Source: a virus | Direction: 5' to 3' (one strand) | DNA length: 44,365 bases | Virus record (IMG/VR): IMGVR_UViG_3300036785_000423 | Coordinates: 1-44,365 of that record | Shown here: positions 10,034-41,905 of the stretch, one piece after another | Numbering within the stretch: position 1 is the stretch's first letter | Layout: the number at the start of each line of letters is the position of its first letter | Program-made: the position numbers and the translations under genes | Notes under the pieces: model-generated | Told to the model about the DNA's origin: nothing | Databases searched by the model: none | What the model saw: the letters and a program-made list of their open reading frames with translations, nothing else

Positions 10034-10114
10034 GACCCACCACATCGGCGACGTGACCGACCCGCAACGCGCGGTCGCGACGCCATGCGCAATCGCGCTG
10101 CGGAGCAATTCCCC

Positions 10115-12313
10115 ATGAGCACCATCGCTCCCCTGCCTCCGATCGGTTTGCAAGGTCCATCGACCAATCCATCGGCACCACAAATTTCGCCGTCGGCGCT
10201 ATCGGATGCGATCAATGCCGAAATAACGGCGATGACGAACGCGATCAACGCGGCACTCGGTGGGCTGCAAACCAGCGTCGATGGCGTGCAAAGCAGCGTG
10301 ACCTCGGCTGCCGGGCAAATCGAAAGCAGCCTGACCGCAGCGCAAGCCAGCCTGGCAGCCGACAGCACGGCGCTCACGACCGTACAGACGGGCGTGACGG
10401 CCATTGCAGCGCAGGTGACCGCGATCCAGGCGGCACTTGGCAGCGCTGGGACAAAACCAGCGATCGCCGCGGTGCCTGGCACGAACATCATCAACGTTGT
10501 TGCCGCATATCTGTTCACCAAGACGATCAGCACGCCAGCCACGTTTTCAGTGTCCAATGTCCCGGCCGGCGTGTCGGTTTTCCGGCTAGCGCTGACCAAT
10601 GGCGGCGTGGCTTCCGTGACCTGGTGGAGCGGGCTTGATTGGCCTGGCGGTGTGGTGCCAGGGCTCACTGCCGCGGGCCTCGATCTGCTGGAATTCGCGA
10701 CCTACGACGGCGGCACGACCTGGTTCGGCACTGTGCTCGGCAACGGCATGGCGGCAGTCGGCGGCGGACCGCCGCCACCACCCCCAGGCCTGAGCCCAAG
10801 CCCCGACCCCACGAGCGTGACCACCACCGGCCAAACCATCGTAGACACTGGCCTGAACACCTGGGAGTTGGTTGTCTCTGCCGCCAACGGATTGCAGGTC
10901 GCCGTCAACGGTGTGGTCGACTCAACCACGGCGAACGTTATCCTGCTCTACTGGCACGGCGGCATGATCTACCAGGAGAACAACTGGCCTGCGTGGTGGT
11001 CATGGTCCGGCACGGCCTGGGTTGCCACCTCCGATCCGCGCCCAGCGGCGCCAGCAGGCTCGCACATCTCGGTCTCCCTCACCTCGCCGACGGGCAAGAG
11101 CGTTTCCAAAATGGTGTTCGGCATTTCTTCCGGCGCCAATGCACATGCCAACTTCGACGAACTCATGGGCCGAGCGGGCAGTGGCGAGCACGGCGCCACG
11201 ACTGCAATGCTAACCTCATTGGGTACGATTAAGTTCTCGGTCTGGCGCTGCCACGCATCCGAGGAAGTCGCGCGGCTCTACGCCCAGGGCCAGACCCAGA
11301 TCATGAATGACTGGTGGGGCACGATCGGTCCGGCGATCATGGCGAGCGGATATCGCCTCGTCATGGGGGTTGGGTGGAAAGCGGGCGGGCATTCAGCTGC
11401 CAATGAGGCTGCATGGGCTTCCACATTTGCGCAGGCGATGAAAAACCAGGGGCACGAGATTTTCTACTGGGAGGTCGACAACGAGCCTGGTGGTACTGGC
11501 GCTGACTACGCCGCATGGTTCAATCCCATCGCCGACGCACTGCATAATGTGAATCCTGCTTACAAGGTCGGCGGCACGACTGGTTCATGGTATGGCGCTG
11601 TCGATCTGAGCGGCTTCTTCACGGGTAGCGGATCGCGCGTCGGGTTTGTTTGCTTCCATTCCTATCGGGTTGGTCCGGCGAATTCGAATGATGCTTGCAT
11701 GGCATCGGCTCACGGCTTCGGAGACATCACCAGCGCCAGAAACGCCATGCGGACAGCTGGCTATCCTGACACGATGGAAATCGCGCTTAACGAATACAAC
11801 ATGGACGGCAATCCCGGCGAGGAACCGAGGCAGACCACGCACATCGGCATGCTGTATATCGATCTGTTGCTGACTGCCAGCTACAAGCAAGACCCGATGT
11901 TCACCATGGGCGGTCTGTGGGACATGTATGCAGACGGCAACTACGGTGTCGTTGAAAATAACTTGTTTGGCGGAGATCCCTCCAGAATCACACCGCAAGG
12001 GCAGTTCCTCGGATATGCGGGGAAGAACCTGTATGGTCCAGAGGTGGCTACATCGACGACACTAAGCAACCTGGAACTACTGGCGACCAAGCCCAGCCCG
12101 GGGACGTTCTGCATCAAATTGACGAACTACAGCATGACGACCGACATCACCGACGCGATCACGCTGGTTGGTGGCGCCCCGACTGGCACGATTACCAGAT
12201 GGGAGCTGGGCAATGCCAACCAGCTGAACGCGGCAATCGGGGTGCAGGCCAGCCTTTCCAGCGTCAGCATTCCCAGGGCTTCTACCGTCATGCTCTCTGG
12301 GACTTTCGCGTAG
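10115..12313 (+). CDS. Tail spike with clan GH-A glycoside hydrolase
   Basis: The N-terminal 110 residues are a coiled coil of Ala/Thr/Gln heptads, likely a trimeric stalk. A beta-rich stretch and a Trp/Gly surface module (nt 10793-11046) follow. Residues 325-640 look like a clan GH-A TIM barrel: an acid/base candidate in EVDNEPG (E457) and a nucleophile candidate in ALNEYN (E560), the Asn-Glu-Pro and late Glu arrangement of GH39, GH51 and GH79-type retaining enzymes. A beta-sandwich tail follows. ATG 10115 is preferred over one ten codons upstream because GGAG lies 10 nt before it. It probably cleaves a host surface glycan; the substrate is not readable. Confidence 0.75.
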   Translation: MSTIAPLPPIGLQGPSTNPSAPQISPSALSDAINAEITAMTNAINAALGGLQTSVDGVQSSVTSAAGQIESSLTAAQASLAADSTALTTVQTGVTAIAAQVTAIQAALGSAGTKPAIAAVPGTNIINVVAAYLFTKTISTPATFSVSNVPAGVSVFRLALTNGGVASVTWWSGLDWPGGVVPGLTAAGLDLLEFATYDGGTTWFGTVLGNGMAAVGGGPPPPPPGLSPSPDPTSVTTTGQTIVDTGLNTWELVVSAANGLQVAVNGVVDSTTANVILLYWHGGMIYQENNWPAWWSWSGTAWVATSDPRPAAPAGSHISVSLTSPTGKSVSKMVFGISSGANAHANFDELMGRAGSGEHGATTAMLTSLGTIKFSVWRCHASEEVARLYAQGQTQIMNDWWGTIGPAIMASGYRLVMGVGWKAGGHSAANEAAWASTFAQAMKNQGHEIFYWEVDNEPGGTGADYAAWFNPIADALHNVNPAYKVGGTTGSWYGAVDLSGFFTGSGSRVGFVCFHSYRVGPANSNDACMASAHGFGDITSARNAMRTAGYPDTMEIALNEYNMDGNPGEEPRQTTHIGMLYIDLLLTASYKQDPMFTMGGLWDMYADGNYGVVENNLFGGDPSRITPQGQFLGYAGKNLYGPEVATSTTLSNLELLATKPSPGTFCIKLTNYSMTTDITDAITLVGGAPTGTITRWELGNANQLNAAIGVQASLSSVSIPRASTVMLSGTFA
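10793..11046 (+). repeat. Tail-spike surface module, copy 1
   Basis: This is a roughly 80-residue block with the pattern D-x-G-x-x-x-W-x-[IL]-x3-A, NG, a V-x-L-x-[YW] strand, a G-x-[IL]-Y strand and a W-x3-[DS]DPR end. It is the most diverged of the three DPR-ended copies. Related blocks occur in the two following spike genes. Confidence 0.65.
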
Positions 12314-12725: not shown

Positions 12726-15700
12726 ATGGCCACACTAGAGACAGACGTGCCGCTGGCTGCAGCGTTCGCCACGTCGGTGGCGACCTACACGGCACAGCGC
12801 ACTGCTCTAAAATCGGCTGTGGCGGCGCTTGTCGCCCAACTGAATTCCACGATCCAGCCACCTCCGCCGGTAACGCACGATCCAAGCCCTGACAAGACTT
12901 CCATCCCTCCCGCGAATACCATTTGGGATGCTGCGGGGCACGCCTGGACCATCGTTGCTGGCGTTGCGACGAGGGACGGCACGCCGGACACTTCCACCTC
13001 GCATGTCAACATGATGCTATGGTGGAGCGGCAGCCTCTATTACATGACCGACACCGGGAGTTGGCGCATTCTGATTGCCTTTGGCAACTGGGCGCCAACG
13101 ACCGATCCAAGGATCGTTCCCCTGTCCCCCGCTCCCGCCGCTGCGGTGGGCTATAATTTGCAGACATTCGGTTCAACCATCGCGTTAGGGACCGACCTGC
13201 GTAAGTTCACTTTCTTCGGCACCGATCCTACTGGCATCACAGCAAACCAGAGCGGCGGCAGTTCAGGGCCGATCGTCATCACCGGCGGCGGCAATAACTA
13301 TGGCGCACAACTTTGCACTGCCAGTTATGACCCGACAGCGAGCGCTGCACATCGGTATATGAGCGGCACGGCCTTTGGTGGGGGCGGCTATTTCGAGGTC
13401 ACGCTGGCAATGCAGACCACGCCGCCATCGACCGCAGGTGCGTCATTCTGGGCAAATGACATCGAGAGCATGGCGGGCGGCTCCTTCGGTGATCAGACGC
13501 TGCGCCAGTGGCCTGGTCAGGCGGCGAATTATGGCGATTGGATCGAGATTGCCGGGACAGAGTTCAACACCGGCACGACCACTAGCTATGGTCTTGGGAT
13601 ACATAACTTTTACGGCTCAGGCACTGCGAGCAATCCTTCAGTTCCGGCGCCGGCTAGCGCAGCTGGTTTCAACACGCAAACCTTCGGGCCGGCAATCACA
13701 CTGGGGTCTGATCCGACGCTGACAACGTTGAATGGAAATGTGCAGAAGTTCAACTTCTTCGGTTGTTCCTGGACCACGATCGGCGTTAACCAGAACGGCG
13801 ATGGCTCCATCTCCATCGTCGGCAACACAGGGAACAACTATGGGGCCGAACTATGTTCAGCGGCCTACCACCCCGGACCATCGCCTTATATAAAAGGCGT
13901 TGCCTTCGGCGGCGGCGGGTATTTCGAGGCCACCATCTCGATGGTAAACCAGCCATCGGCGGCCGGTGCGAGCTTCTGGTTCAATGACATCGAGAGCATG
14001 GCTGGCGGTTCATTCGGCGACCTGACGCTGCGCCAGTGGCCTGGGCAGGCAGTAGGATATGGCAACTGGATCGAGCTGGACGCACCCGAATTCAATACCG
14101 GGAACACGACGCAGTTTGGTCATGGAATACACAACTTCTATGGTGGCGGGACAAACCTCGATACTGGCACGTATCCGGGCTTCGTCTCGCCAGTTACAGC
14201 GCCGGGCGGCACGGACTTTCGCCAGCCCCATCAATATGGGGTGCTTTGGGTGCCGGCTACGGATAGCACGCAGGGTTTTATAACGTGGTATTTCGACCGC
14301 GTGCAGATCGGCCAGACTGTTTTTTGGAATAAGTGGTCTGCCGGGATGACGCCGCCCCCGGTGCAAGGAACGACGGCGTATAGCGTCATCGACACACGCC
14401 ATCTGGCATTCATCCTTGGCAATGGCGATGCGAACAACCTGGTGACGGTCCACTCGGTCGAGGTGTGGCAGGCAACAGCAGCCCACAACATTGGCGCTGC
14501 ATTGGGGACTACCCTAGCCGGTGTTCCAATACCGTCCGGCTGGGAGATGAAGCGTGTCGATACGTTCGGCACGAGTGGCTCGGTGCCTGACCTGACGACA
14601 CTGCACAGTCTTTATGCTGAGGGGCAGTTCTACAACGTAAGCGGCGATCGCGTTTGGATACCGAACACCGTCATCAACAGCGAGCAGCAGACATACTCGC
14701 ATTTCGAAGATGTGATTGCCTTCTCGACAGATCATCTGACCATTCAGGGCAGAGGGCACGTCGGCAACACGATTACCTCTGGCGAGATGGTTAGCAAGTG
14801 GTATGGGCGCAGCTTCATTTTCGAGGTTCGCGCCAAGGCTCCCATATCTTCCGGCTCATGGACTGCGATCTGGGCATATGCACGAGCAGCGGGCGGCGAT
14901 GGGTCCGAGCTGGATGTTGAGATGACGATGGTCATCGGTGACGAGGCGGCGAATAGGCACCGCGTCTATCACTACAATCATCCTGGCCAGAGCAACGTCG
15001 TCATCAGCGACAGCAACTTTACCACCCCGTTCATGATGTATCAAAATGCATCATTCAACGTCGACGCCGCGCATACTTATACAATTGTCTACGACGACGT
15101 GGCGGGGAAAGTCTCGCGATATATCGACGGCACGCTGATCTATAGCGCCGACTTCAAGTGGAACGCCTCGCTAGGCGGCACGGGTCACGGACCGGACGCA
15201 ATCCTGACCATATGCCTTGCAGCCGGCGGCAGCTGGCCGGGGCAGATTGCCACGCCGAGCGCCTATAGCGGTGATCTCGATGTCTACTCGGCAGCCTACT
15301 ATGCACCGACCGCTTGGACGCCACCGCCGCCAGTGGTTACGCCCCAGACATGGGGCGCTCTCAGGGGCTCACACGTTTCGCTGTCGGGAAGTGACCTGAT
15401 CGCCACTGCGGCTGCGGGTGGTGGTGTAGTCTACGGCGCATTGTTCAATACCACCGGCAAGTTCTACTGGGAGGTTATCCTAAACAATAGTGGGAATGTC
15501 GGCGCAGGAATAGGCAGCAACCAGGTACCTGTTGGCGATGCCGAATGGGTTGGCGGTTCAAACAATAGTATAGGATGGTACAACGCCGGGGCTGTTTATA
15601 ACGGCGGGTCACTGAAAGCCACATTCGCATCGTTTGGCAATGGCGCTATTCGCTTGTGTTTTTCTATCGATTTGACTAGCGCGACTAAGAAACTCTGGGG

Positions 15701-15923
15701 ACGTGTAGGTGCCACTGGCAATTGGGACAATGATGTCCTTGCCAATCAAAACCCTGCTACAGGCGCCGGAGGCATCGACCTAAGTACATGCGGCGACACC
15801 CTGTCGTGGCCGGTTACGGCAGGCGCAAGTCTATCGGCTGGTGATACGGCAACGGGCTGCTTCACTTCGGCATCATGGGTTGGCACTGCGCCATCTGGCT
15901 TCACGGCGTTTGTTACATCGTAA
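12726..15923 (+). CDS. Multidomain tail spike with GH16-like folds and SPRY-like domain
   Basis: The domains in order are: a short helical stalk (1-45); a surface module (52-132); a partial jelly roll (140-298); a second, fuller copy (313-590); a third GH16-like domain (about 600-860); and an SPRY-like domain (about 875-1065: GKFYWEV, GNVGAGIGSN, NNSIGWYNAGAVYNGG). GH16 enzymes cleave beta-1,3 or beta-1,4 glucans and galactans using E-x-D-x-E or E-x-D-x-x-E. The third domain has ELDVE (E728, D730, E732). The second copy has ELDAPE. The first copy has EIAGTE, lacking the Asp, so it may be inactive or only bind. GGAGG precedes the ATG. It likely degrades and binds a host exopolysaccharide. Confidence 0.75.
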   Translation: MATLETDVPLAAAFATSVATYTAQRTALKSAVAALVAQLNSTIQPPPPVTHDPSPDKTSIPPANTIWDAAGHAWTIVAGVATRDGTPDTSTSHVNMMLWWSGSLYYMTDTGSWRILIAFGNWAPTTDPRIVPLSPAPAAAVGYNLQTFGSTIALGTDLRKFTFFGTDPTGITANQSGGSSGPIVITGGGNNYGAQLCTASYDPTASAAHRYMSGTAFGGGGYFEVTLAMQTTPPSTAGASFWANDIESMAGGSFGDQTLRQWPGQAANYGDWIEIAGTEFNTGTTTSYGLGIHNFYGSGTASNPSVPAPASAAGFNTQTFGPAITLGSDPTLTTLNGNVQKFNFFGCSWTTIGVNQNGDGSISIVGNTGNNYGAELCSAAYHPGPSPYIKGVAFGGGGYFEATISMVNQPSAAGASFWFNDIESMAGGSFGDLTLRQWPGQAVGYGNWIELDAPEFNTGNTTQFGHGIHNFYGGGTNLDTGTYPGFVSPVTAPGGTDFRQPHQYGVLWVPATDSTQGFITWYFDRVQIGQTVFWNKWSAGMTPPPVQGTTAYSVIDTRHLAFILGNGDANNLVTVHSVEVWQATAAHNIGAALGTTLAGVPIPSGWEMKRVDTFGTSGSVPDLTTLHSLYAEGQFYNVSGDRVWIPNTVINSEQQTYSHFEDVIAFSTDHLTIQGRGHVGNTITSGEMVSKWYGRSFIFEVRAKAPISSGSWTAIWAYARAAGGDGSELDVEMTMVIGDEAANRHRVYHYNHPGQSNVVISDSNFTTPFMMYQNASFNVDAAHTYTIVYDDVAGKVSRYIDGTLIYSADFKWNASLGGTGHGPDAILTICLAAGGSWPGQIATPSAYSGDLDVYSAAYYAPTAWTPPPPVVTPQTWGALRGSHVSLSGSDLIATAAAGGGVVYGALFNTTGKFYWEVILNNSGNVGAGIGSNQVPVGDAEWVGGSNNSIGWYNAGAVYNGGSLKATFASFGNGAIRLCFSIDLTSATKKLWGRVGATGNWDNDVLANQNPATGAGGIDLSTCGDTLSWPVTAGASLSAGDTATGCFTSASWVGTAPSGFTAFVTS
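12879..13122 (+). repeat. Tail-spike surface module, copy 2
   Basis: The block starts DPSPDKTS, has IWDAAGHAWTIVAGVATRDG in its centre and ends TTDPR. It is nearly identical, at DNA level in places, to the copy at 16320-16560. Confidence 0.8.
13147..13620 (+). repeat. Duplicated GH16-like half, copy A
   Basis: This stretch repeats in 13663-14140 with strong nucleotide identity around the segment encoding NDIESMAGGSFGD and LRQWPGQA. The copy stops at HNFYG and lacks the second half of the fold that copy B has. Confidence 0.75.
13663..14500 (+). repeat. Duplicated GH16-like domain, copy B (full)
   Basis: The first part matches 13147-13620. The second part (TDFRQPHQYG through VEVWQATAAHNI) matches the first 350 nt of the next spike gene. 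This is the only copy holding both halves. Confidence 0.75.
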
Positions 15924-15935
15924 GGACGCCTAATC

Positions 15936-18900
15936 ATGGCAGTTCAAGACCTGAACACTGGCGACGCTCTCTGGGCGCCGTTCAGCCCGGTCACCGTGCC
16001 GCCCGGCACGGACTTTCGCCAGCCGCATCAATACGGCTTTCTGTGGGTGCCGGCGACCGCGACGACGCAAGGCTATATGGAGTGGTATTTCGATCGCGTG
16101 AAGATCGGCAAGCGTGTCAGCTGGGATCTCTTCAATCCGGCATTGCCACCCCCTCCTGTAGCGGGCTCATCGGCATTCAGTGTTCTGGATACCAGACACA
16201 TAGCGCTGATCCTCGGTAACGGCGATCCCAACAATCTGGTGACGGTTTCGGCCGTTCAGGTTTGGCAATTGACGGCCGCCAACAATATTACAGACGCGCC
16301 GGTGGTGGTACATGCCCCAAGCCCTGATAACACCACCGTCCAGGCTGGCGGCGGCACCATCTGGGATGCTGGCGGGCACGCATGGACCATTGTGGCCGGC
16401 GTTGCGACGAGGGACGGCGTGGCGGACACTTCCACCTCGAACGTCAACATGCTGCTGTGGTGGGGCGGCGGCCTCTATTACGTCACCAACGCCGCAACAT
16501 GGCGCGTCCTGGTGGCCTTCGGGAACTGGATAGCGACGACCGATCCAAGGGTATTGCCGCCTGCTGCCACGGACATCTCTCTCAGCAACAACACCATCGC
16601 TGCGGGCTCGCCGAGCGGCACAGTTGTCGGCGCTATCGGAGTGACCACGACAGGGACATTCGCCGGGTCCCTGGCGCTATCCGGCACTGATGCCACAAAA
16701 TTCCAAGTCCAGACCAACACCGGCCCCGCACCGTCATTTGACAGCGAGTTTTCTGCTCCACAGCCCTGGATGGCCCATAACGTCTATCAGGCCGGTGATC
16801 CGTGGTCATGGTGCAGTGACGCTTTCCTCCAGGGCGGCCTGGTTCTGCCGGACTTGAAAACGTGGTGGCTGAATCCGACCAATCCCAACACGCAGATGGC
16901 AGGAGTCTATACACTCGCCAACGGCATGCTCAACATGGGCATCCTGCCAAATCCTGGCGGTGCTATCGGTAATTACATCAACAATCAGGCTGGTCAGACG
17001 GTCGACTATGTCGGCGGCATCATCAGCACGCAGCACGCTTTCCGTCCACTATACGGATATTTCGAGTGCTCGGTAGCAATGGACAGGGTTCCTGGGGCTG
17101 GATGCCATGCCGAGATCGAGGATTACCCGGGCCATGACTGGTCGTCGGAGATTGATCTGGAAATCTGGACTGACGGAAGCAACGTCATGCACGCTGCCTT
17201 CGATTATTCCGGATGGGATTCCAATGGTTTCTGGCTCAACAAGGTTTACGAAATCACGACGGCTCAAGGCTTCGACGGGACGGTCCAGCACACCTATGGA
17301 TGGGATTGGCAGTCCGACAAGATCACCTACTATATGGACGACCATCAAGTCGCGCAGGTCAACACGCCGACCGACGGCACATTCAACAACTCGATGTTTT
17401 ACTATTTCCAGACCGCCGCCAGCATGTCCACGGGCGAGAGCGGGTTCGGGGTTTATCCCGACAAGGCTGGCCCTGTTCCCTATGCTCACATCAAGTATCT
17501 GAAATATTGGCCTAGCAAGCCAGCCGCGGGAAGTGGCGGCGGAACAAATCTGATCACCAGTGGTGTGCTCGGGGCCGGCACGGACAATATCAACATCGTG
17601 GCCTCCGCTTCTGGAAAGTCGTCATTCAGCAAGCCGTTTGCCATTACAGTTCAGAGCGCGGCTGCACTGGGGCAGCTCGCATCGTTTGGTGCCAGCGCTT
17701 CGTCTTCGACCTCGATACTGGCCACCTTTGGGTTGCCAACGACTGGCACCATCGACCATGGCGGCGTGCTCGTCCAATACAAGCGCAATGCGGATTCAAC
17801 GTGGCTCGATGGGGTGCGAGGACTTGTCGCCACCATGTCCGGCGGGACCATCACCGATACGCAGGGCAAGACCTGGTCGATCAATGCCGGCGCTCAGATC
17901 GTCTGCAATTCCAATGTAGATATCAACACGGCCAACGCGACCGTCGTTGTTCTCATGCCGGATGGCACCGCATGGCACGTAAACGCCAGCGGGCAGTGGT
18001 ACAGCAAGCCGACGTCGAATGGTTTGTCTTCTGGCGGATGGACAGGTCCGATCGCGTCGCCGTTCACAACGGCCTTTACCATCAGCGGATTGACGGCGAC
18101 CGTGGCTTACAATGTCCGTGGCTACGCCTACAATTCGTCTGGCAATGGTGCGATGTCCAATGTGGTCAATGTTACGACTTCCGCATCGGTGGCCGGCTTT
18201 ACCGTAACGCAAGCCAATGGCATTCGAGACAGCGCCGGCAATCGGTGGGAACTGCGCGGGTATAACTGCTGGTGGGGCGAGTTCAACAACATTAAGGCCA
18301 ACTTGTACTCGAAATTCCCCGGCGCAAATCTCGTGCGTGTGGTGTGCGGTAGGGACACTACCGTAGGCAACATCAGCGGCATGATCAATGAATTGACCGC
18401 GAGGCATGTGATCTGCTTCATCGACTTTCACGATTCGGTCGATGGCAACACGGTCGGGTGGTATCAGACGATGTGCGCCGCGTTCAAGAATAATCCGTAT
18501 TGCTTTATGGAAACGCCAAACGAACCCGGCTCAAATGTTTCTGGAGACCAGATTACAATCATCAACGCGCTGCGTGCTGGAGGGTGGACCAACCCGATCG
18601 GCCTAGAACTACAGTTGGGCTATCAGTTTGACAATATCGGGCCGACCATGGCGTCAATCTCCCAAAATAACCAGATTTTCCTCTGTCCGCATAATTATGG
18701 TGATTGGTGGAACAACAACATGCAGAACAGCGCCAACGCCACTGGTCTATACAGCGTCGTTGACGAGTTCGGCGACGCGATGGATGGTGTCACTATCGAT
18801 GGAAATGGGCCGGATTGCGTGCGGCACATCATTCAGAGCCAACAGAATCACGAATGCGGGGCTGCCGTCTGGTCCGCGACAAACGGCTATCATCAGGGGG

Positions 18901-19760
18901 ACAACCTATTCCTCGACCCGCAGGGGAATACAATCGCCAGCATGGGGCAGATCATGCTCGACATGGGGTGGCTATCCGATGCTGGCGGCATAACGCCGCC
19001 GCCGCCGCCTCCCCCATCAGGTGGATCTGCGCCAGTAGGGTCTGTGTTCTGGGACAATTTCCCCGGCACATCGATCGACACTTCCAAATGGAACCGCGGG
19101 TACTTCTGGCGGCCTGACGGCGGCGGCGGAAGTTCAGGTTGGGACGTCGGCGAGAATCAGATCGGGCCGCACCCTGAATTGGATGTGTTCCCGGTCTCCG
19201 GCAATCAGGTGCAGGTGCAGGTCAAGCCGTCGCCGAACACGTCACTGTCCGGCGGCAATCCGTGGCTCACCGGAAACCTGAATACGCACAAGTCATGCGC
19301 TCGGACGTATGGCTACTGGGAGGTCGACGCCAAGCTCGCGAGAAACCAAGGGCTTCTGAACGCAATCTGGCTGTGGTCTATGGACGAGACCAATTGGCCC
19401 AGCGAGGAAATCGACATTACAGAGACGGCAAGTTCTAGCTGGCCGAATACGATGCGCAGCAATGTGCATGTCCCTGGCGGGGAGAACGTACAGAATCATG
19501 ACAACGGACGGCTAAGCGACGCATTTCATAAGTATGGCGTGGATTGGCAACCCGACACGATCTCATTCTACTTCGATCGAGTGATGTTTAGCTCGGCGCC
19601 GACACCAGCTGCGGTCAAGGGTCCGATGTATCTGATCATTTCGAACTATGTGAATGCCGGTGGCGAGTGGTGGGGAGGCTCCACCGTGCAGGGGGGCGAT
19701 TCCTGGCCTGATGGGATCACCGTTCGGGAAGTCACAGTCTGGCCCACCAGGCCGTTCTGA
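15936..19760 (+). CDS. Giant tail spike with three glycanase domains (GH16, GH5, GH16)
   Basis: The 1274 residues hold, in order: a jelly-roll half homologous to the preceding spike (1-117); a surface module (129-208); a short beta domain; GH16-like domain 1 (about 270-535) with EIDLE (E405, D407, E409); a fibronectin-III-like region (about 575-750) with another surface-module-like insert; a GH5-like TIM barrel (about 755-1015) with TPNEP (acid/base E863) and VVDEFGD (nucleophile E944); a Pro linker; and GH16-like domain 2 (about 1030-1274) with EIDITE (E1158, D1160, E1163). All key residues are present. GH5 enzymes include endo-beta-1,4-glucanases and GH16 includes beta-1,3-glucanases, so a mixed or cellulose-like beta-glucan is a reasonable target. 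AAGGA precedes the ATG. Confidence 0.8.
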   Translation: MAVQDLNTGDALWAPFSPVTVPPGTDFRQPHQYGFLWVPATATTQGYMEWYFDRVKIGKRVSWDLFNPALPPPPVAGSSAFSVLDTRHIALILGNGDPNNLVTVSAVQVWQLTAANNITDAPVVVHAPSPDNTTVQAGGGTIWDAGGHAWTIVAGVATRDGVADTSTSNVNMLLWWGGGLYYVTNAATWRVLVAFGNWIATTDPRVLPPAATDISLSNNTIAAGSPSGTVVGAIGVTTTGTFAGSLALSGTDATKFQVQTNTGPAPSFDSEFSAPQPWMAHNVYQAGDPWSWCSDAFLQGGLVLPDLKTWWLNPTNPNTQMAGVYTLANGMLNMGILPNPGGAIGNYINNQAGQTVDYVGGIISTQHAFRPLYGYFECSVAMDRVPGAGCHAEIEDYPGHDWSSEIDLEIWTDGSNVMHAAFDYSGWDSNGFWLNKVYEITTAQGFDGTVQHTYGWDWQSDKITYYMDDHQVAQVNTPTDGTFNNSMFYYFQTAASMSTGESGFGVYPDKAGPVPYAHIKYLKYWPSKPAAGSGGGTNLITSGVLGAGTDNINIVASASGKSSFSKPFAITVQSAAALGQLASFGASASSSTSILATFGLPTTGTIDHGGVLVQYKRNADSTWLDGVRGLVATMSGGTITDTQGKTWSINAGAQIVCNSNVDINTANATVVVLMPDGTAWHVNASGQWYSKPTSNGLSSGGWTGPIASPFTTAFTISGLTATVAYNVRGYAYNSSGNGAMSNVVNVTTSASVAGFTVTQANGIRDSAGNRWELRGYNCWWGEFNNIKANLYSKFPGANLVRVVCGRDTTVGNISGMINELTARHVICFIDFHDSVDGNTVGWYQTMCAAFKNNPYCFMETPNEPGSNVSGDQITIINALRAGGWTNPIGLELQLGYQFDNIGPTMASISQNNQIFLCPHNYGDWWNNNMQNSANATGLYSVVDEFGDAMDGVTIDGNGPDCVRHIIQSQQNHECGAAVWSATNGYHQGDNLFLDPQGNTIASMGQIMLDMGWLSDAGGITPPPPPPPSGGSAPVGSVFWDNFPGTSIDTSKWNRGYFWRPDGGGGSSGWDVGENQIGPHPELDVFPVSGNQVQVQVKPSPNTSLSGGNPWLTGNLNTHKSCARTYGYWEVDAKLARNQGLLNAIWLWSMDETNWPSEEIDITETASSSWPNTMRSNVHVPGGENVQNHDNGRLSDAFHKYGVDWQPDTISFYFDRVMFSSAPTPAAVKGPMYLIISNYVNAGGEWWGGSTVQGGDSWPDGITVREVTVWPTRPF
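16320..16560 (+). repeat. Tail-spike surface module, copy 3
   Basis: The block encodes SPDNTT..., IWDAGGHAWTIVAGVATRDG and TTDPR. It is closely related in DNA and protein to the copy at 12879-13122. Confidence 0.8.
17853..18045 (+). repeat. Tail-spike surface module, diverged copy 4
   Basis: The spacing of D-x-x-G-x-x-W-x-I-x-A-G, then an NATVVVLMPDG strand and a W-x-V-N-x-S-G-Q-W-Y end, matches the other copies although identity is low. It lies inside the fibronectin-III-like region before the GH5 domain. Confidence 0.5.
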
Positions 19761-19778: not shown

Positions 19779-20372
19779 ATGGAGGACCCTGACCCAGCCC
19801 GGTCCGAGCGGTCTTCCGTAACGCTCGAACGGATCGCGATCGGCATTCTGGCCGTGGCACTGGGCGGCATATTCTGGTGGGGCGAGCGCGGCAATCAGAT
19901 CAGCATCAACACCGAGCACCTGGCGGCGCTCGATACAAGCCAGGCGGCGTTGCGCGCTCAGCTTTCCGACATGGTCTCGGTCGACACCTCACTGAAGAGC
20001 GACCTGGCAAACGCCAAGCGGGAACTGGTCGACCTCCGGGCCGCGCATGAAAGCGAGATGGCAAGTCTCGGGAAGGTCGATGCAAACTTGCAGGACAAGT
20101 TGCAGCGAATCATTGACCAGGGCACGCCGGTCACGCGCGTGCTGCGCGGCGACGTGGACAGGCTGGTGCGCGACATCGACGAGCTACATGTGCTGCGGGA
20201 TGTCGGGGTCCGGCAATGGCTGGAGATGGCCCAGCGCCAAGCCAAGCTAGAGGCAGATATGGAGACGACGAAGGACCGCGCGGCCAAGCTGAGGCTAGAC
20301 CTCAACGAGCACACCAAGACCGATCTCGACCTGATGCGCGATCGGATGAACAATATGGAGCGAGCAAAATGA
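19779..20372 (+). CDS. Membrane-anchored coiled-coil protein of lysis region
   Basis: This is a 197-residue protein with one transmembrane segment (about residues 18-36, IAIGILAVALGGIFWWGE). A long charged helical region follows (residues 45-195), with heptads such as RELVDLRAAHESEMASLGK. Topology and shape fit an inner-membrane spanin (Rz-like) or another envelope-spanning late protein; it is longer than many Rz proteins and has no signal peptide. It follows the last spike and overlaps the next small membrane protein by ATGA. Confidence 0.6.
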   Translation: MEDPDPARSERSSVTLERIAIGILAVALGGIFWWGERGNQISINTEHLAALDTSQAALRAQLSDMVSVDTSLKSDLANAKRELVDLRAAHESEMASLGKVDANLQDKLQRIIDQGTPVTRVLRGDVDRLVRDIDELHVLRDVGVRQWLEMAQRQAKLEADMETTKDRAAKLRLDLNEHTKTDLDLMRDRMNNMERAK

Positions 20373-26385: not shown

Positions 26386-26684
26386 TCACCGAGGAACAGG
26401 CCGGCATCGTCAAGGGCCTGCTGGCGCGCGGCGAAAAGCAGCACGACATCGCCGCGTTCTTTGGCGTCAACGGCGGGCGTATTGCCGAGATCGCCAAGGG
26501 CAAGAAGTTCCCCGACGTGTCCCCCGCCGCCAAACGCGAACTGCCCACGCCGGCGGTCATGGTGCAGGGCTACGCAGCGCATGTTGCGTTGCAGGCGCTG
26601 CGGATCATCGAGATAGCCGTGCAATCGGCCATTGCCCGCATCGCCGAGCAAATGGGCGCCCCGGACAAGGGGAGCAAGCACTGA
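26382..26684 (+). CDS. Helix-turn-helix protein (100 aa)
   Basis: Residues 1-42 (EEQAGIVKGLLARGEKQHDIAAFFGVNGGRIAEIAKGKK, read in two helices) fit a small homeodomain-like HTH found in many phage and bacterial regulators, with the recognition helix at GGRIAEIAKG. The rest is a hydrophobic helix likely used for dimerisation. GGGGGAA lies upstream of the ATG. The following methyltransferase starts in the stop codon. Confidence 0.65.
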   Translation: MITEEQAGIVKGLLARGEKQHDIAAFFGVNGGRIAEIAKGKKFPDVSPAAKRELPTPAVMVQGYAAHVALQALRIIEIAVQSAIARIAEQMGAPDKGSKH

Positions 26685-27649
26685 TGGCGGGTTCCGCGAA
26701 AGTCGTGGCATTCGGCGACCACGACCGCTGGGTTTCCGACGGATTAGAGTTGGGCGAGCGCGAGCGGTCGTCACATTCCATCATGTGGGACATCGGCGAC
26801 TGGTGGAACCGCGGCGAACCGTACGGGGACCGGGCGCAGATCGTGACAGCGGCGAGTTGGACCGGCCCGAAGCACCAGACCTGCCGCGATGCGGCGTGGG
26901 TCGCTAAGCGGTGGAGAGCGTCTTTGCGCAAAGACACTCTCAGTTTCGAGCATCACAAGGTAGCGGCCAGGATTAAGGACGACAACGAGGCGATTGCACT
27001 GCTCGAATGGTGTCTCGACGCGCCGGAGCCACGCTCGGCGGAAGAGCTACGCGCGCGGATTAAGCAGGTGAGGCGGGCTGACCGCGAGGTTGATCTCGCA
27101 GAGGCGACGGTGGCTGCGTCTGAGGCGCTCGGGAGCAAGCTCTACGGTGTGATTATGGCCGATCCTCCGTGGCGTTTCGCGCCCTACAGCCGCGACACCG
27201 GCATGGACCGCGCTGCAGACAACCACTACCCGACGATGACGATAGAGCGCATCCGTGCGATGGCGGTGCCAGCAGCGGACGATGCCGTGCTGTTCCTGTG
27301 GGCCACTGTGCCGATGCTGCCAGAGGCGCTGTCGGTCATGGCGGCATGGGGGTTTACCTACAAATCCCATTGCGTGTGGGCAAAGGATCGCGTCGGAACC
27401 GGGTATTGGTTCCGAAACCAGCATGAGCTTCTACTGGTCGGCACGCGCGGAAATGTCCCGGCGCCGGCACATGGTGAGCAATATGCATCGGTGATCTCCG
27501 CGCCACTGGGGCGTCATTCGGCCAAACCGAACGCCTTCGCCGAGATGATCGAGGCGATGTTCCCGACGCTGCCGGCGCTGGAGATGTTCGCGCGCGGTCC
27601 GCGCCTCGGATGGACGGTCTGGGGGAACCAGGCTGAGGAGGCCGCATGA
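26684..27649 (+). CDS. MT-A70 family DNA N6-adenine methyltransferase
   Basis: Residues 150-321 are an MT-A70 methyltransferase: the catalytic DPPW motif at 160-163, YPTMTIERIRAM, AVLFLWATVPMLPEAL, FTYKSHCVWAKDRVGTGYWFRNQHELLLVGTRG, and GRHSAKPNAFAEMIEAMFP. The family transfers a methyl group from S-adenosylmethionine to adenine N6. The first 140 residues (SIMWDIGDWWNRGE, KDTLSFEHHKVAARI) resemble a DNA-binding segment found in some phage proteins and may supply specificity. Phages use such enzymes to avoid restriction or to mark replicated DNA. No cognate endonuclease adjoins it, so it is an orphan methylase. Confidence 0.9.
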   Translation: MAGSAKVVAFGDHDRWVSDGLELGERERSSHSIMWDIGDWWNRGEPYGDRAQIVTAASWTGPKHQTCRDAAWVAKRWRASLRKDTLSFEHHKVAARIKDDNEAIALLEWCLDAPEPRSAEELRARIKQVRRADREVDLAEATVAASEALGSKLYGVIMADPPWRFAPYSRDTGMDRAADNHYPTMTIERIRAMAVPAADDAVLFLWATVPMLPEALSVMAAWGFTYKSHCVWAKDRVGTGYWFRNQHELLLVGTRGNVPAPAHGEQYASVISAPLGRHSAKPNAFAEMIEAMFPTLPALEMFARGPRLGWTVWGNQAEEAA

Positions 27650-28078: not shown

Positions 28079-28263
28079 CAATCAGCAAGGCCGCCATCGA
28101 GGAGCGCACCAGGTTGATCGAGGATGCCATCGATCTGCTGCATGAGCTGCGCGGCTTTCCCGAACTACCAGACATCGAGGGGCGGATCACCGAGCGTGGC
28201 TCCCGCACATTGGATCGGATCGCCGATGGGTTCGACAAACTCATCGGTGCGCTTGAAAAATGA
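28075..28263 (+). CDS. Small helical protein, GTG start
   Basis: This 62-residue protein is predicted as two helices (IEERTRLIEDAIDLLHELRG and RTLDRIADGFDKLIGALEK) with a PELPD turn. GTGA upstream and ATGA downstream overlaps couple it into the operon. No family was recognised. Confidence 0.6.
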   Translation: MTISKAAIEERTRLIEDAIDLLHELRGFPELPDIEGRITERGSRTLDRIADGFDKLIGALEK

Positions 28264-29753
28264 CGGTCAGGTTCTTTCAGGGCGACGCGCTGACAGTTCT
28301 CCGCACCCTGCCGGATGCGTCGGTGCATGCCTGCATTACCAGCCCCCCCTACTACGCGCTCCGCTCGTATCTCGGCGCCGATCACGCCGACAAGCCGCTG
28401 GAGCTTGGCTCCGAGCCAACTCCCGCCGCGTATATCGCCGCCATGGTCGCGGTGTTCAGAGAAGTGCGGAGGGTGTTGCACCCCACTGGCCTGCTGCTGG
28501 TGAATCTTGGCGATGGATACGTGTCCTCGCCTCCCGGCAACAAGACGGTCGGCGTTTCGGCGAAGTCGGGACTGAACGGCGTCAATGGTGCATCGGGCCA
28601 ATACCGCGAAACGCTTGCTGCCGGGACCGCACTGAAGCGCGACACGACCGGCATGGGACTGCCCCCCAAGAACCTACTGATGATGCCGGCGCGCGTGGCG
28701 ATCGCGCTGCAAAGCGACGGGTGGATACTCCGCTCGCAGATGCCGTGGGTGAAGCGGTCGTGTATGCCGGAGAGTTGTTCCGATAGGCCAACGAGTGCGA
28801 TCGATCTCGTCTACATGTTCGCCAAGTCGAGCAGCACCACGTTCTGGGTGCATCGCGATCTACCCGGCTCGCGCACACAACCAGCACCGGATCATCGTTG
28901 GGTGCACGTCAAGAGCGGCGAGGAGCGATCGGCAGCGCCACTCGGCTGGTCTGACGACGAGGCGATCCGGAAGGCGTGGCGGCGCGTCAATCTTTGGGAA
29001 GGCCGCGATTATTTCTGGGACGCCACTGCCGTCCAGCGCGTATCTGCTCGCGAGCCACATGCGCCTTGTAACAAGTTCATCACGCAGCCCTTAGCCAAAG
29101 GCGCGCGCGATCCTGCGTACGATCCTGACCGCGTGTGGGGAAACAGCACCCGCAACTTCCGCAACTCCGATCTCTTCTACCAATCGCTGGAGCCGCCGCA
29201 TGGCCTCATCACCGACACGGACAGCCTGCCGGTCGCGCTCGACGTGAACCCGGCTGCGTTCGCTGAAGCGCACTTCGCAACATTTCCAGCAAAGCTGGTC
29301 GAGCCCCTCGTGCGCGCGGCCACCTCCGAGCGCGGCTGCTGCGCGGCTTGTGGGGCGCAGTGGGTGCGCCAAACCGCTCGGCGCGTGATTCCGCTACAAG
29401 TGACGAACAACGCGCGGTCGTGCGATCAAAACAACCGTGGCGCCATGCCTAGAGCCAATATCGACACCGCCACAACCGGCTGGGCGCCATCCTGCTCCTG
29501 CAATGCAGATGTCGTGCCGTGCACCGTGCTCGATTGCTTCTCGGGCGCGGGTACGACTTGTTTGGTTTCCGAAAGACTTGGCAGGGATTCTATCGGAATT
29601 GAACTTAGTCGGGAGTATATTCGCCTTGCGGAACGTAGGCTGACTGGCGACGCTCCACTCTTTGTTGAAGTGCAGCACGACGCTTCTGCTCAAAGTCCTT
29701 CCTGTGTTCCTTCAGATGCGATGGCCGACCTGTTCTCCCAGGCGGCCGACTGA
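28260..29753 (+). CDS. Beta-class DNA methyltransferase (N4-cytosine or N6-adenine)
   Basis: The catalytic motif SPPY is at residues 28-31 and the S-adenosylmethionine-binding motif (LDCFSGAGTT) at about 424-433, giving the order IV then I that defines the beta class. GIELSREYIRLAERRL follows as usual. SPPY favours cytosine N4, but some N6-adenine enzymes share it. Between the motifs are PKNLLMMPARVAIALQSDGW, HATFPAKLVEPLVRA and a CCAACGAQW zinc-like knuckle. It is longer (497 residues) than minimal enzymes, so an internal target-recognition region is likely. It is the second methylase of the operon and stands directly before the GcrA-like gene. Confidence 0.9.
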   Translation: MTVRFFQGDALTVLRTLPDASVHACITSPPYYALRSYLGADHADKPLELGSEPTPAAYIAAMVAVFREVRRVLHPTGLLLVNLGDGYVSSPPGNKTVGVSAKSGLNGVNGASGQYRETLAAGTALKRDTTGMGLPPKNLLMMPARVAIALQSDGWILRSQMPWVKRSCMPESCSDRPTSAIDLVYMFAKSSSTTFWVHRDLPGSRTQPAPDHRWVHVKSGEERSAAPLGWSDDEAIRKAWRRVNLWEGRDYFWDATAVQRVSAREPHAPCNKFITQPLAKGARDPAYDPDRVWGNSTRNFRNSDLFYQSLEPPHGLITDTDSLPVALDVNPAAFAEAHFATFPAKLVEPLVRAATSERGCCAACGAQWVRQTARRVIPLQVTNNARSCDQNNRGAMPRANIDTATTGWAPSCSCNADVVPCTVLDCFSGAGTTCLVSERLGRDSIGIELSREYIRLAERRLTGDAPLFVEVQHDASAQSPSCVPSDAMADLFSQAAD

Positions 29754-33745: not shown

Positions 33746-34183
33746 ATGGCTCGTGAGCACGGCCGCGTGTGCATCAACTGCCGCTACTGGAAACCAACCG
33801 CTCCACCAGGATGGACGTCGGACGAAACAACCGAGTTCAGCCTCTTCGAGCTCAGCCAGCACCTACACAAACTCGGTAACTACAGGATCGGTGAGCGCGG
33901 ATGGCCGGGAAACTGTGGCCTCCAGCCAACCCATATCCCCACATCGTCCGGCCACTCATGCGCCCAGTTCGACGCCGCCGTCCGCATGGTCAACACCCAT
34001 TGGGACATTTGGGCCGAAAGGCGCCAGCGATACGCCCAGACCGACAGACTCCGCGCCGAGATCAAGCGCCTCAAAGCCCTCGCCGCATCGCGCCTCGCCC
34101 AACTGCGCAAAAGACCAGCCAAACCCAAACGCGCCAAGACCATACAGCCCGAACCCAACGGGACAGCCGATCATGCCCCTTGA
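33746..34183 (+). CDS. Cys-containing protein with basic C-terminal helix
   Basis: The N-terminus has CINCRYWK and later GNCGLQ and HSCAQF, four Cys likely to hold one metal ion. The C-terminal 45 residues are a basic helix and Lys/Pro tail (RLKALAASRLAQLRKRPAK). It overlaps the NusG-like gene by 11 nt. Similar small proteins of unknown role accompany phage early genes. Confidence 0.6.
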   Translation: MAREHGRVCINCRYWKPTAPPGWTSDETTEFSLFELSQHLHKLGNYRIGERGWPGNCGLQPTHIPTSSGHSCAQFDAAVRMVNTHWDIWAERRQRYAQTDRLRAEIKRLKALAASRLAQLRKRPAKPKRAKTIQPEPNGTADHAP

Positions 34184-34802
34184 CCAATCAGCCACACACG
34201 CTGTATCCCAGCAGCCACACAGGCTATGCGGCCAGCCTCGCGAGGCTGCTACGCCTAGCGGATGCCGTCCACCCATCGGCATCCGATGGTTCGCCGTCAG
34301 CACCTACCCCCAGGCCGAACGACGCGCCATTCAGAACCTCGCCCAGGCCGGTTATGCTACCTACCTGCCCCTGGTCGCCGTCAGGCGCCGCGATCGCGTC
34401 CTGCGGTCCCTCGTCCATCTCGTCGAGATCCCGCTGTTCGCAAGCTACGCCTTCGTACGCTTCGACCGAGCCAAAGATCCCTGGTGGCCCATCATCCGAA
34501 CCCCGGGCGTCTATGCGCTCCTGATGGACGAAGCGGCCCAGAAGCCCATCCCCGTCACAGAGGGCGCTGTCGAGGTGCTGCAGGCGACGGAAGCCCAGCG
34601 CGCACTCATCCCCCCGCCAACCGCCACACTGGCACCAGGGACCGCCGTAAAGGTTCTGGCGGGTTTCTTTAAGGGGTGCCAGGCTGTAGTGAAGGCGGCA
34701 TTCCATCCGAAGGTGAGGGTGACCCTGATGGTCCTCGGAGGATTGAGGGACGTGACGCTTGACCTAGGAGACGTGTCTTCGATCCAAAGTCCGCCGGGGT
34801 GA
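34173..34802 (+). CDS. NusG/RfaH-like transcription factor
   Basis: After a disordered N-terminal 36 residues, residues 37-120 match the NGN domain (RWFAVSTYPQAERRAIQNL, YATYLPLVAVRRRDRV, LFASYAFVRFD, WWPIIRTPGVYALL), which binds RNA polymerase beta'. Residues 152-205 fit a KOW domain (LAPGTAVKVLAGFFKGCQAVV). NusG family proteins control pausing and termination. As the last gene of the rightward early operon and the nearest upstream of the late block, it may act as an antiterminator for late transcription. ATG 34173 is used; the family core needs no earlier start. Confidence 0.8.
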   Translation: MPLDQSATHAVSQQPHRLCGQPREAATPSGCRPPIGIRWFAVSTYPQAERRAIQNLAQAGYATYLPLVAVRRRDRVLRSLVHLVEIPLFASYAFVRFDRAKDPWWPIIRTPGVYALLMDEAAQKPIPVTEGAVEVLQATEAQRALIPPPTATLAPGTAVKVLAGFFKGCQAVVKAAFHPKVRVTLMVLGGLRDVTLDLGDVSSIQSPPG

Positions 34803-40793: not shown

Positions 40794-41141
40794 ATGCCGT
40801 TTGATTGTCTGCCCGAGCACCTGTTGACCGACCTCGTCAAGCTGAAGCTGGCGCGGGACGGGATTGCCGGTGACAGTGGCTGGGCTCAGAGCGAGCTTGG
40901 CCTGGCCGATGAGCCGCAGCATTGTGTCATTGGCTGGCTGCTGGTCGCCGCCGATTGGGATGCGCGCGAGGCCACGCGGCTGCTCGTGAACTATGTCTAT
41001 CCGGTGTTGCCGGAGAGCGCGCGGAACGGGTTCAAAGGACGTGCTTCCGCGGTGTATCATTACAACGATGAGGAATGCCGGACGCAGCAGCGCGTCGTGC
41101 GTCTGTTCGACGATGCGATCCGGCTTGCGGAAGTTGCGTGA
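40794..41141 (+). CDS. Hypothetical protein (115 aa)
   Basis: The protein begins MPFDCLPEHLLTDLVKLKL and has a mixed helical body with an aromatic stretch (VIGWLLVAADWDAREATRL). GGAG lies 7 nt before ATG 40794, favoured over GTG 40782. The sigma-like gene starts within its stop codon (GTGA). Confidence 0.55.
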   Translation: MPFDCLPEHLLTDLVKLKLARDGIAGDSGWAQSELGLADEPQHCVIGWLLVAADWDAREATRLLVNYVYPVLPESARNGFKGRASAVYHYNDEECRTQQRVVRLFDDAIRLAEVA

Positions 41142-41905
41142 ACCCTGTCGAAGATGACCTTATTCTGCGCCTCGACGTCAACCGGGCGATAGCAACCAGG
41201 CTACGGCCGCGCGAGCGGGAGATCGTCCGGGATTATTGCCGGTATGGCCGGACGTTTCTGGAAACTGGTGCGTTGCACGGTCTTAGCATCGAGCGCACCC
41301 GCCAGCTTTATGCCAGGGCAGAGCGGCGGCTGCGGGTGGCGTTGGCGGAGCCTCAACAGGTCTCGCGCAATAGCAGACTGCCAATCGGGTTCGATCGCGC
41401 AGCATTTCTCCGCCACATGCGCGGCCTCATTGCGCTGCGCGAGGAGCGTCGCAGCAGGGAGTTCGAGGACGATTACGCGCTCGTGGCTGGGCTACTGCAG
41501 CACGAGCGGGAGAAGAAGCGGCCTGCGGCACCACCGCCACCGCCACCGCCACCGCCACTGCCGCAGCCGCTGAATGCTCATTCCGAGGCTGCTCTGACCA
41601 GAGTTGCCTCTACTGCGCTCGATGCGTTCATGGCGCTGCTGAACCCAACCGAGGAAGGCAGCGAGACACTCGGGGCGATGTTCACCACTTACACCTTCGA
41701 CTGCTTCGACTCCGCTTCGGTACGGAATGCCGTTCGAATTATGCGGGCGGCGATGCCGGCTTCGGTCCGGCTGTCCAGATGGATAATGCCGATCCCGCCT
41801 GGAATGTGTGGCGCCGTGGTCGCCAATGAATATGCCTGCGTCCGGGCGCTTTCTGTCGGGGCAGCGCTGCAAACGCGCCTCGATATAACCTGGGACCCGA
41901 TATGA
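41138..41905 (+). CDS. Sigma-70 region 4-like protein with poly-Pro linker
   Basis: Residues 20-72 have the sigma region 4 pattern: RLRPREREIVRDYCRYG, TFLETGALHGLSIERTRQLYARAERRLR, in which the HTH (LHGLSIERTRQLYARA) would read the -35 element. No region 2 (-10 binding) is present. A run of about nine Pro (about 133-141) and a separate 100-residue C-terminal domain with Cys and hydrophobic segments follow. GTG 41138 is the only suitable start and is coupled by GTGA; the portal starts in its stop codon. It may steer host polymerase to late promoters or act as an anti-sigma decoy. Confidence 0.65.
   Translation: MNPVEDDLILRLDVNRAIATRLRPREREIVRDYCRYGRTFLETGALHGLSIERTRQLYARAERRLRVALAEPQQVSRNSRLPIGFDRAAFLRHMRGLIALREERRSREFEDDYALVAGLLQHEREKKRPAAPPPPPPPPPLPQPLNAHSEAALTRVASTALDAFMALLNPTEEGSETLGAMFTTYTFDCFDSASVRNAVRIMRAAMPASVRLSRWIMPIPPGMCGAVVANEYACVRALSVGAALQTRLDITWDPI

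Follow-up and report, generated by a model that had tools for sequence, protein, structure and literature searches.

Phage depolymerases described so far mostly have a single catalytic activity on each chain. The endo-1,3-1,4-beta-glycanases EglC and ExoK of the Rhizobiales, which belong to GH16, are bacterial stand-alone enzymes, unlike the C-terminal GH16 domain of the protein described here (GH16b), which matches both of their profiles from within a much longer chain. In phages, GH16-like domains occur in or close to genes with a tail annotation, namely the GH16 gene of Sinorhizobium phage phiM9 and the Curtobacterium phage minor tail proteins, and these matches are weak (E 1e-3 to ~1). In addition, it has been reported that a soil virus encodes an active GH5 endomannanase, which was treated as metabolic and not as a tail protein (PMC6786970); activity of a viral GH5 is therefore realistic. 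No description of a multi-glycosidase array of the kind presented below was found in the open literature searched, which leaves most subscription papers outside.

The window, i.e., the whole stretch of DNA that was analysed, is a viral fragment of 44,365 bases (IMG/VR record IMGVR_UViG_3300036785_000423). Protein p, encoded at 15936–19760 on the plus strand like all other features of p and its two upstream neighbours described below, has an ATG start and 1274 aa, and its frame is open throughout. The chain combines two GH families and three intact sites, and it adjoins two more glycosidase-bearing tail genes. Its probable role is that of a multi-catalytic depolymerase that acts on polysaccharide from the virion, and its gene is one of three neighbouring tail genes built from common parts. 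The sequences show the reading frame, the homologies of the domains, their catalytic residues, the sharing of the module and the recurrence of such parts in other viral contigs; virion location, activity, substrate and cooperation of the domains are each what we infer from them.

Domain architecture of protein p

The order of parts in p is half-GH16 / module A / Ig(GH16a) / FN3(module B) / GH5 / GH16b, with nested domains in brackets. The chain begins with the orphan C-terminal half of a GH16-type domain (15984–16289, aa 17–118), which lacks the catalytic motif. It is followed by copy A of a module of about 90 aa (16317–16571, aa 128–212), which shares 79% DNA identity with the stretch encoding aa 53–129 of the preceding protein, q. 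The first part of an Ig/cadherin-like domain then lies at 16572–16721 (aa 213–262), GH16a at 16737–17522 (aa 268–529), and the second part of the Ig domain at 17550–17654 (aa 539–573), the boundaries of the last being approximate, as they were set by the uninterrupted Ig domain of another viral protein, L088. The first part is 45% identical to that domain over 47 aa, and by comparison with L088, where the homologous Ig domain is uninterrupted, GH16a appears to be nested within the Ig domain of p.

An FN3-like domain with the inserted module copy B comes next (17664–18188, aa 577–751); the fn3 match in Pfam is 15.8 bits, below the cut-off. Residues 535–752 of p are 38–39% identical to the viral contigs G045 and G040, and a 778-aa ORF of G045 (L116) holds two FN3 units with an inserted module, a recurrence that supports the nesting of module B in p. 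The C-terminal part is occupied by GH5 (18195–18971, aa 754–1012) and GH16b (19041–19757, aa 1036–1274).

That is to say, p holds more than three domains, since the half GH16, the two modules, the Ig domain and the FN3-like domain stand beside the three hydrolases. The first-pass annotation had called p a spike protein and assumed a trimer, a description that finds no footing here: p has no recognisable beta-helix, coiled coil or anchor, its N-terminus is half a GH16 domain, and neither Pfam nor PHROG gave a match to a tailspike, beta-helix or head-binding domain.

The three glycosidase domains

The Pfam scores of GH16a, GH5 and GH16b are all well beyond chance, that of GH16b being strong and those of GH16a and GH5 modest. 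When p was scanned entire, Pfam returned two PF00722 stretches (E 2.4e-22), and GH5 was absent from the listing. As isolated domains, GH16a and GH16b reach 30.5 and 66.6 bits, respectively, against PF00722 (cut-off 22), and GH5 reaches 31.2 bits against PF00150 (cut-off 23.5), with 36.1 bits in a six-frame Pfam search of the record. The eight catalytic residues that had been listed for p are all present with the letters given: E405, D407 and E409 in GH16a, E863 (acid/base) and E944 (nucleophile) in GH5, and E1158, D1160 and E1163 in GH16b. Three hydrolase modules with intact catalytic residues are thus carried by one chain, as had been claimed, but they are not "three different" ones, because two are GH16 and only two families are represented.

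GH16b has the catalytic strand EIDITE at 1158–1163, which is of the beta-bulge type, and its direct sequence matches in the PDB are GH16 laminarinases and lichenases. It matches the NCBIfam EglC profile with E 3.5e-33 and 115.2 bits, below the 700-bit equivalog cut-off, and the ExoK profile with 31.4 bits, below the equivalog cut-off of 350 bits. GH16b is ~30–38% identical to plasmid-borne homologues and resembles glycanases of Rhizobiales and Methylobacterium; its likeness to these proteins and to EglC/ExoK hints at an alphaproteobacterial host.

In GH5, alignment with a Dietzia cellulase-family enzyme showed that the hallmark residues are kept (R801, H832, N862-E863, H919/Y921, E944 and W979). 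The p GH5 alone gave no match in the PDB, and a profile built from it together with the Dietzia enzyme matched GH5 beta-mannanases best (PDB 4fk9, 3wsu and 1bqc). A GH5-based scan of viral contigs produced 202 pattern matches, none of which was confirmed. The AF2 model of GH5 and GH16b has a pLDDT of 37, so that the folds and grooves of both rest on sequence.

The catalytic strand of GH16a is EIDLE at 405–409, in the flat form without a bulge. Loss of the substrate groove in any domain had been named beforehand as the finding that would overturn the three-enzyme reading. For GH16a, where this was checked, the modelled core has the GH16 fold: the model of the Ig/GH16a segment has a mean pLDDT of 54, with the core mostly at 55–84 (low confidence), and the best 50 Foldseek matches of that core are all GH16 enzymes (E 1.5e-10 to ~3e-8). 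The model counts as support and not as independent proof, because its alignment included other GH16 domains.

Adjacent tail genes and a divided GH16 domain

The gene at 10085–12313 encodes a 742-aa tail-fibre protein composed of a coil, a tail-fibre domain (aa 112–222), the module and a GH39-like TIM barrel. It is assigned to tail fibre by PHROG and matches the tail fibre of phage CRP-603. Its barrel has NEP and NEY motifs, gives a Pfam GH39 match below the cut-off and shares homology with the domain at the C-terminus of L088. Between this gene and p lies q (12726–15923, 1065 aa), whose order is coil / module / half GH16 d1 / d2 / GH16c / SPRY-like. The half domain d1 reads EIAGTE, in which the Asp is lost; the whole domain d2 reads ELDAPE, has no Pfam match and is assigned to GH16 by alignment and motif; GH16c has ELDVE and 28.6 bits in Pfam; and the C-terminal end is a weak SPRY-like stretch. 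Six candidate active sites are therefore spread over three adjacent genes, one in the tail-fibre protein, two in q (d2 and GH16c) and three in p. The earlier description of p as a tail protein with three modules holds insofar as the gene for p sits in the tail region, and one that encodes a tail-fibre domain lies upstream of it.

The module of about 90 aa is common to the three genes (10793–11050, 12876–13133, 16317–16571 and 17838–18062). It has no Pfam match, and the PDB gives designed propellers only, at E 0.013 and weaker, which is unconvincing. A search of viral contigs, carried out with a narrowed alignment as the wider one had no usable conserved stretch, found homologues of the module in ten viral contigs, L088 included, with many tandem copies in L097.

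The boundary between q and p cuts a GH16 domain in two. Residues 135–297 of q (13128–13616, ending in HNFYGSGT) align to the N-terminal part of d2, and residues 17–118 of p (15984–16289) align to its C-terminal part (aa 488–589 of q, 68% aa identity). The two halves have complementary ends, and the whole paralogue d2 lies between them. Their distances to d2 are alike, with 66% aa identity and dN 0.27 for the q half versus 68% and dN 0.25 for the p half; dS is ~2.1 for both, which is close to saturation. Read most simply, this means that a single d1 domain diverged from d2 and was then split by insertion or recombination, through which d2, GH16c and the SPRY-like part would have come to lie between the halves. 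It is also conceivable, though we think it unlikely, that the q half and the p half still fold together and that p docks on q through the completed split jelly roll; docking of this kind would join the proteins in a single tail complex, in which as many as six glycosidase sites could be active. A frameshift that would make p the continuation of q was rejected, as q has its own SPRY-like end and stop codon, and p has a start with AAGGA upstream.

Related arrays, competing readings and proposed role

Searched as a whole against phage records, viral contigs and genome contigs, p yielded no relative that could be used. Its combination of domains had been called rare. This agrees with the lack of any whole-length relative among 50,697 phage records and in IMG/VR, but similar chains with at least two glycosidase-type domains do occur in other viral contigs. 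L088 (3300045142_000053, 1613 aa) starts with six FN3 domains and also contains three modules, GH16, Ig and a GH39-like domain. Like p, it has the module as well as GH16 and Ig domains homologous to those of p; unlike p, its Ig is uninterrupted, and it has one GH16, no GH5 and two catalytic domains, whose motif sets are both intact. The proteins of L091, L092 and L098 (1876–1880 aa) resemble the cluster of p in uniting modules, Ig, a d-type GH16 and a GH39-like domain on one chain, but they have no GH5, and the NE pair with the acid/base of the GH39-like domain is lost. Their d-type GH16 keeps its acids, and their N-terminal region, which Pfam does not support, is TIM-like by eye only. L096 (1273 aa) shares with p the modules, FN3 and a GH16 with a second glycosidase on one chain; this glycosidase is GH26 and not GH5, there is no second GH16, and both its GH26 and its GH16 are above the Pfam cut-off. 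Judged by such shared parts, p is a member of a broader group of modular, putatively polysaccharide-cutting tail proteins of uncultured phages, about which little has been described. Since decay of catalytic sites is common in these arrays, the intact trio in p is an uncommon feature, within a small sample.

The same decay bears on the most serious competing reading, namely that only one or two of the three domains of p are catalytic, and that GH16a (perhaps also GH5) binds carbohydrate and has kept its acids through recent ancestry. We regard this as a real possibility, if not the one we favour. In G045 and G040, the homologues of GH16a read SAICPVR where GH16a has SEIDLE and have thereby lost the triad; this version, found at 14407–15444 of L117 and 13099–14142 of L116, is apparently binding-only, so that the GH16a fold can serve as a binding domain in phages. 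The lost acid/base in the GH39-like domains of L091, L092 and L098 and the EIAGTE of d1 in q point in the same direction, and GH16a itself, which is 29% identical to the GH16 of L088, lacks the Trp that its relatives keep ahead of the triad. What speaks for catalysis is that none of the eight listed residues has been lost, nor any of six further hallmark residues of GH5, and that the triad spacing of GH16a is that of flat-strand lichenases in an alignment with 3wvj. By comparing p with its decayed homologues, one can test under which conditions phages retain catalysis and under which the fold is turned to binding.

It would be a different matter if p were an auxiliary metabolic enzyme, secreted or carried by the phage to break down plant polymers for the host; the soil-virus endomannanase was described in just that role (PMC6786970). 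Such an enzyme is distinctly improbable here, as p lies downstream of a tail-fibre gene with one gene between, shares the module with both, and shows no signal peptide when judged by eye, while the similarly built array of L088 adjoins a gene read by eye as baseplate-like. Very improbable, finally, is an assembly chimera of strain variants behind the q/p junction and the domain order. The contig is metagenomic, the region is found in one assembly, and the close relative L004 ends just short of it; but the repeated parts are 68–79% identical in DNA, which is low for assembly confusion and makes such an error unlikely, and the junction has a stop, the ribosome-binding-like AAGGA and a start between open reading frames.

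In the preferred reading of p as a multi-catalytic depolymerase of the virion, the three proteins encoded at 10085–12313, 12726–15923 and 15936–19760 are assembled from a common stock, namely the module, spacers of the Ig and FN3 types, and glycosidase domains of the retaining kind (GH16, GH5 and GH39-like TIM). Their place would be at or close to the tip of the tail, where they would open a path through the host exopolysaccharide during adsorption; p has no recognised tail-anchor domain, which counts against this reading. GH16b would cut backbones of the beta-1,3/1,4-glucan type, as its EglC/ExoK/laminarinase-like character suggests; GH16a, with its lichenase-like flat strand, may attack a related backbone that is also beta-linked; and GH5, whose closest counterparts are bacterial beta-mannanases, may cleave a gluco- or mannosidic beta-1,4 link. 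Carbohydrate binding or domain spacing is the probable task of the modules. The most likely target is a host exopolysaccharide of the beta-glucan/mannan type, and the sequential cutting of a mixed polymer, proposed when the sequence was first read, is a plausible candidate mode. If this is true, there are environmental phages equipped with a full set of enzymes that cut exopolysaccharide. The module can also serve as a marker in the search for such arrays in viral metagenomes, in which a lone GH5 or GH16 match may otherwise read as metabolic.

In the rest of the record, the relative G001 (terminase 86% identical) matches both ends of the window and stops just short of the tail-fibre genes, and the tail cluster comes after genes that are conserved in the related phage identified through the terminase. 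The protein encoded at 931–2016, conserved across most related contigs in the comparison, has no Pfam match; its N-terminal part is assigned to "hydrolase" by PHROG, and a weak acetyltransferase match lies at its C-terminus. Directly 3′ of p, a short protein (19779–20372) is hydrophobic over a stretch close to its N-terminus and resembles a coiled coil over a long part, and is possibly a lysis or membrane protein. Two DNA methyltransferase genes lie at 26684–27649 (MT-A70) and 28260–29753 (N6_N4_Mtase, the match being spread over aa 22–359). Further downstream, a 349-aa NusG-domain protein is encoded at 33753–34802 (PF02357; transcription antiterminator in PHROG), and a protein with a Sigma-70 region 4 domain at 41075–41905.
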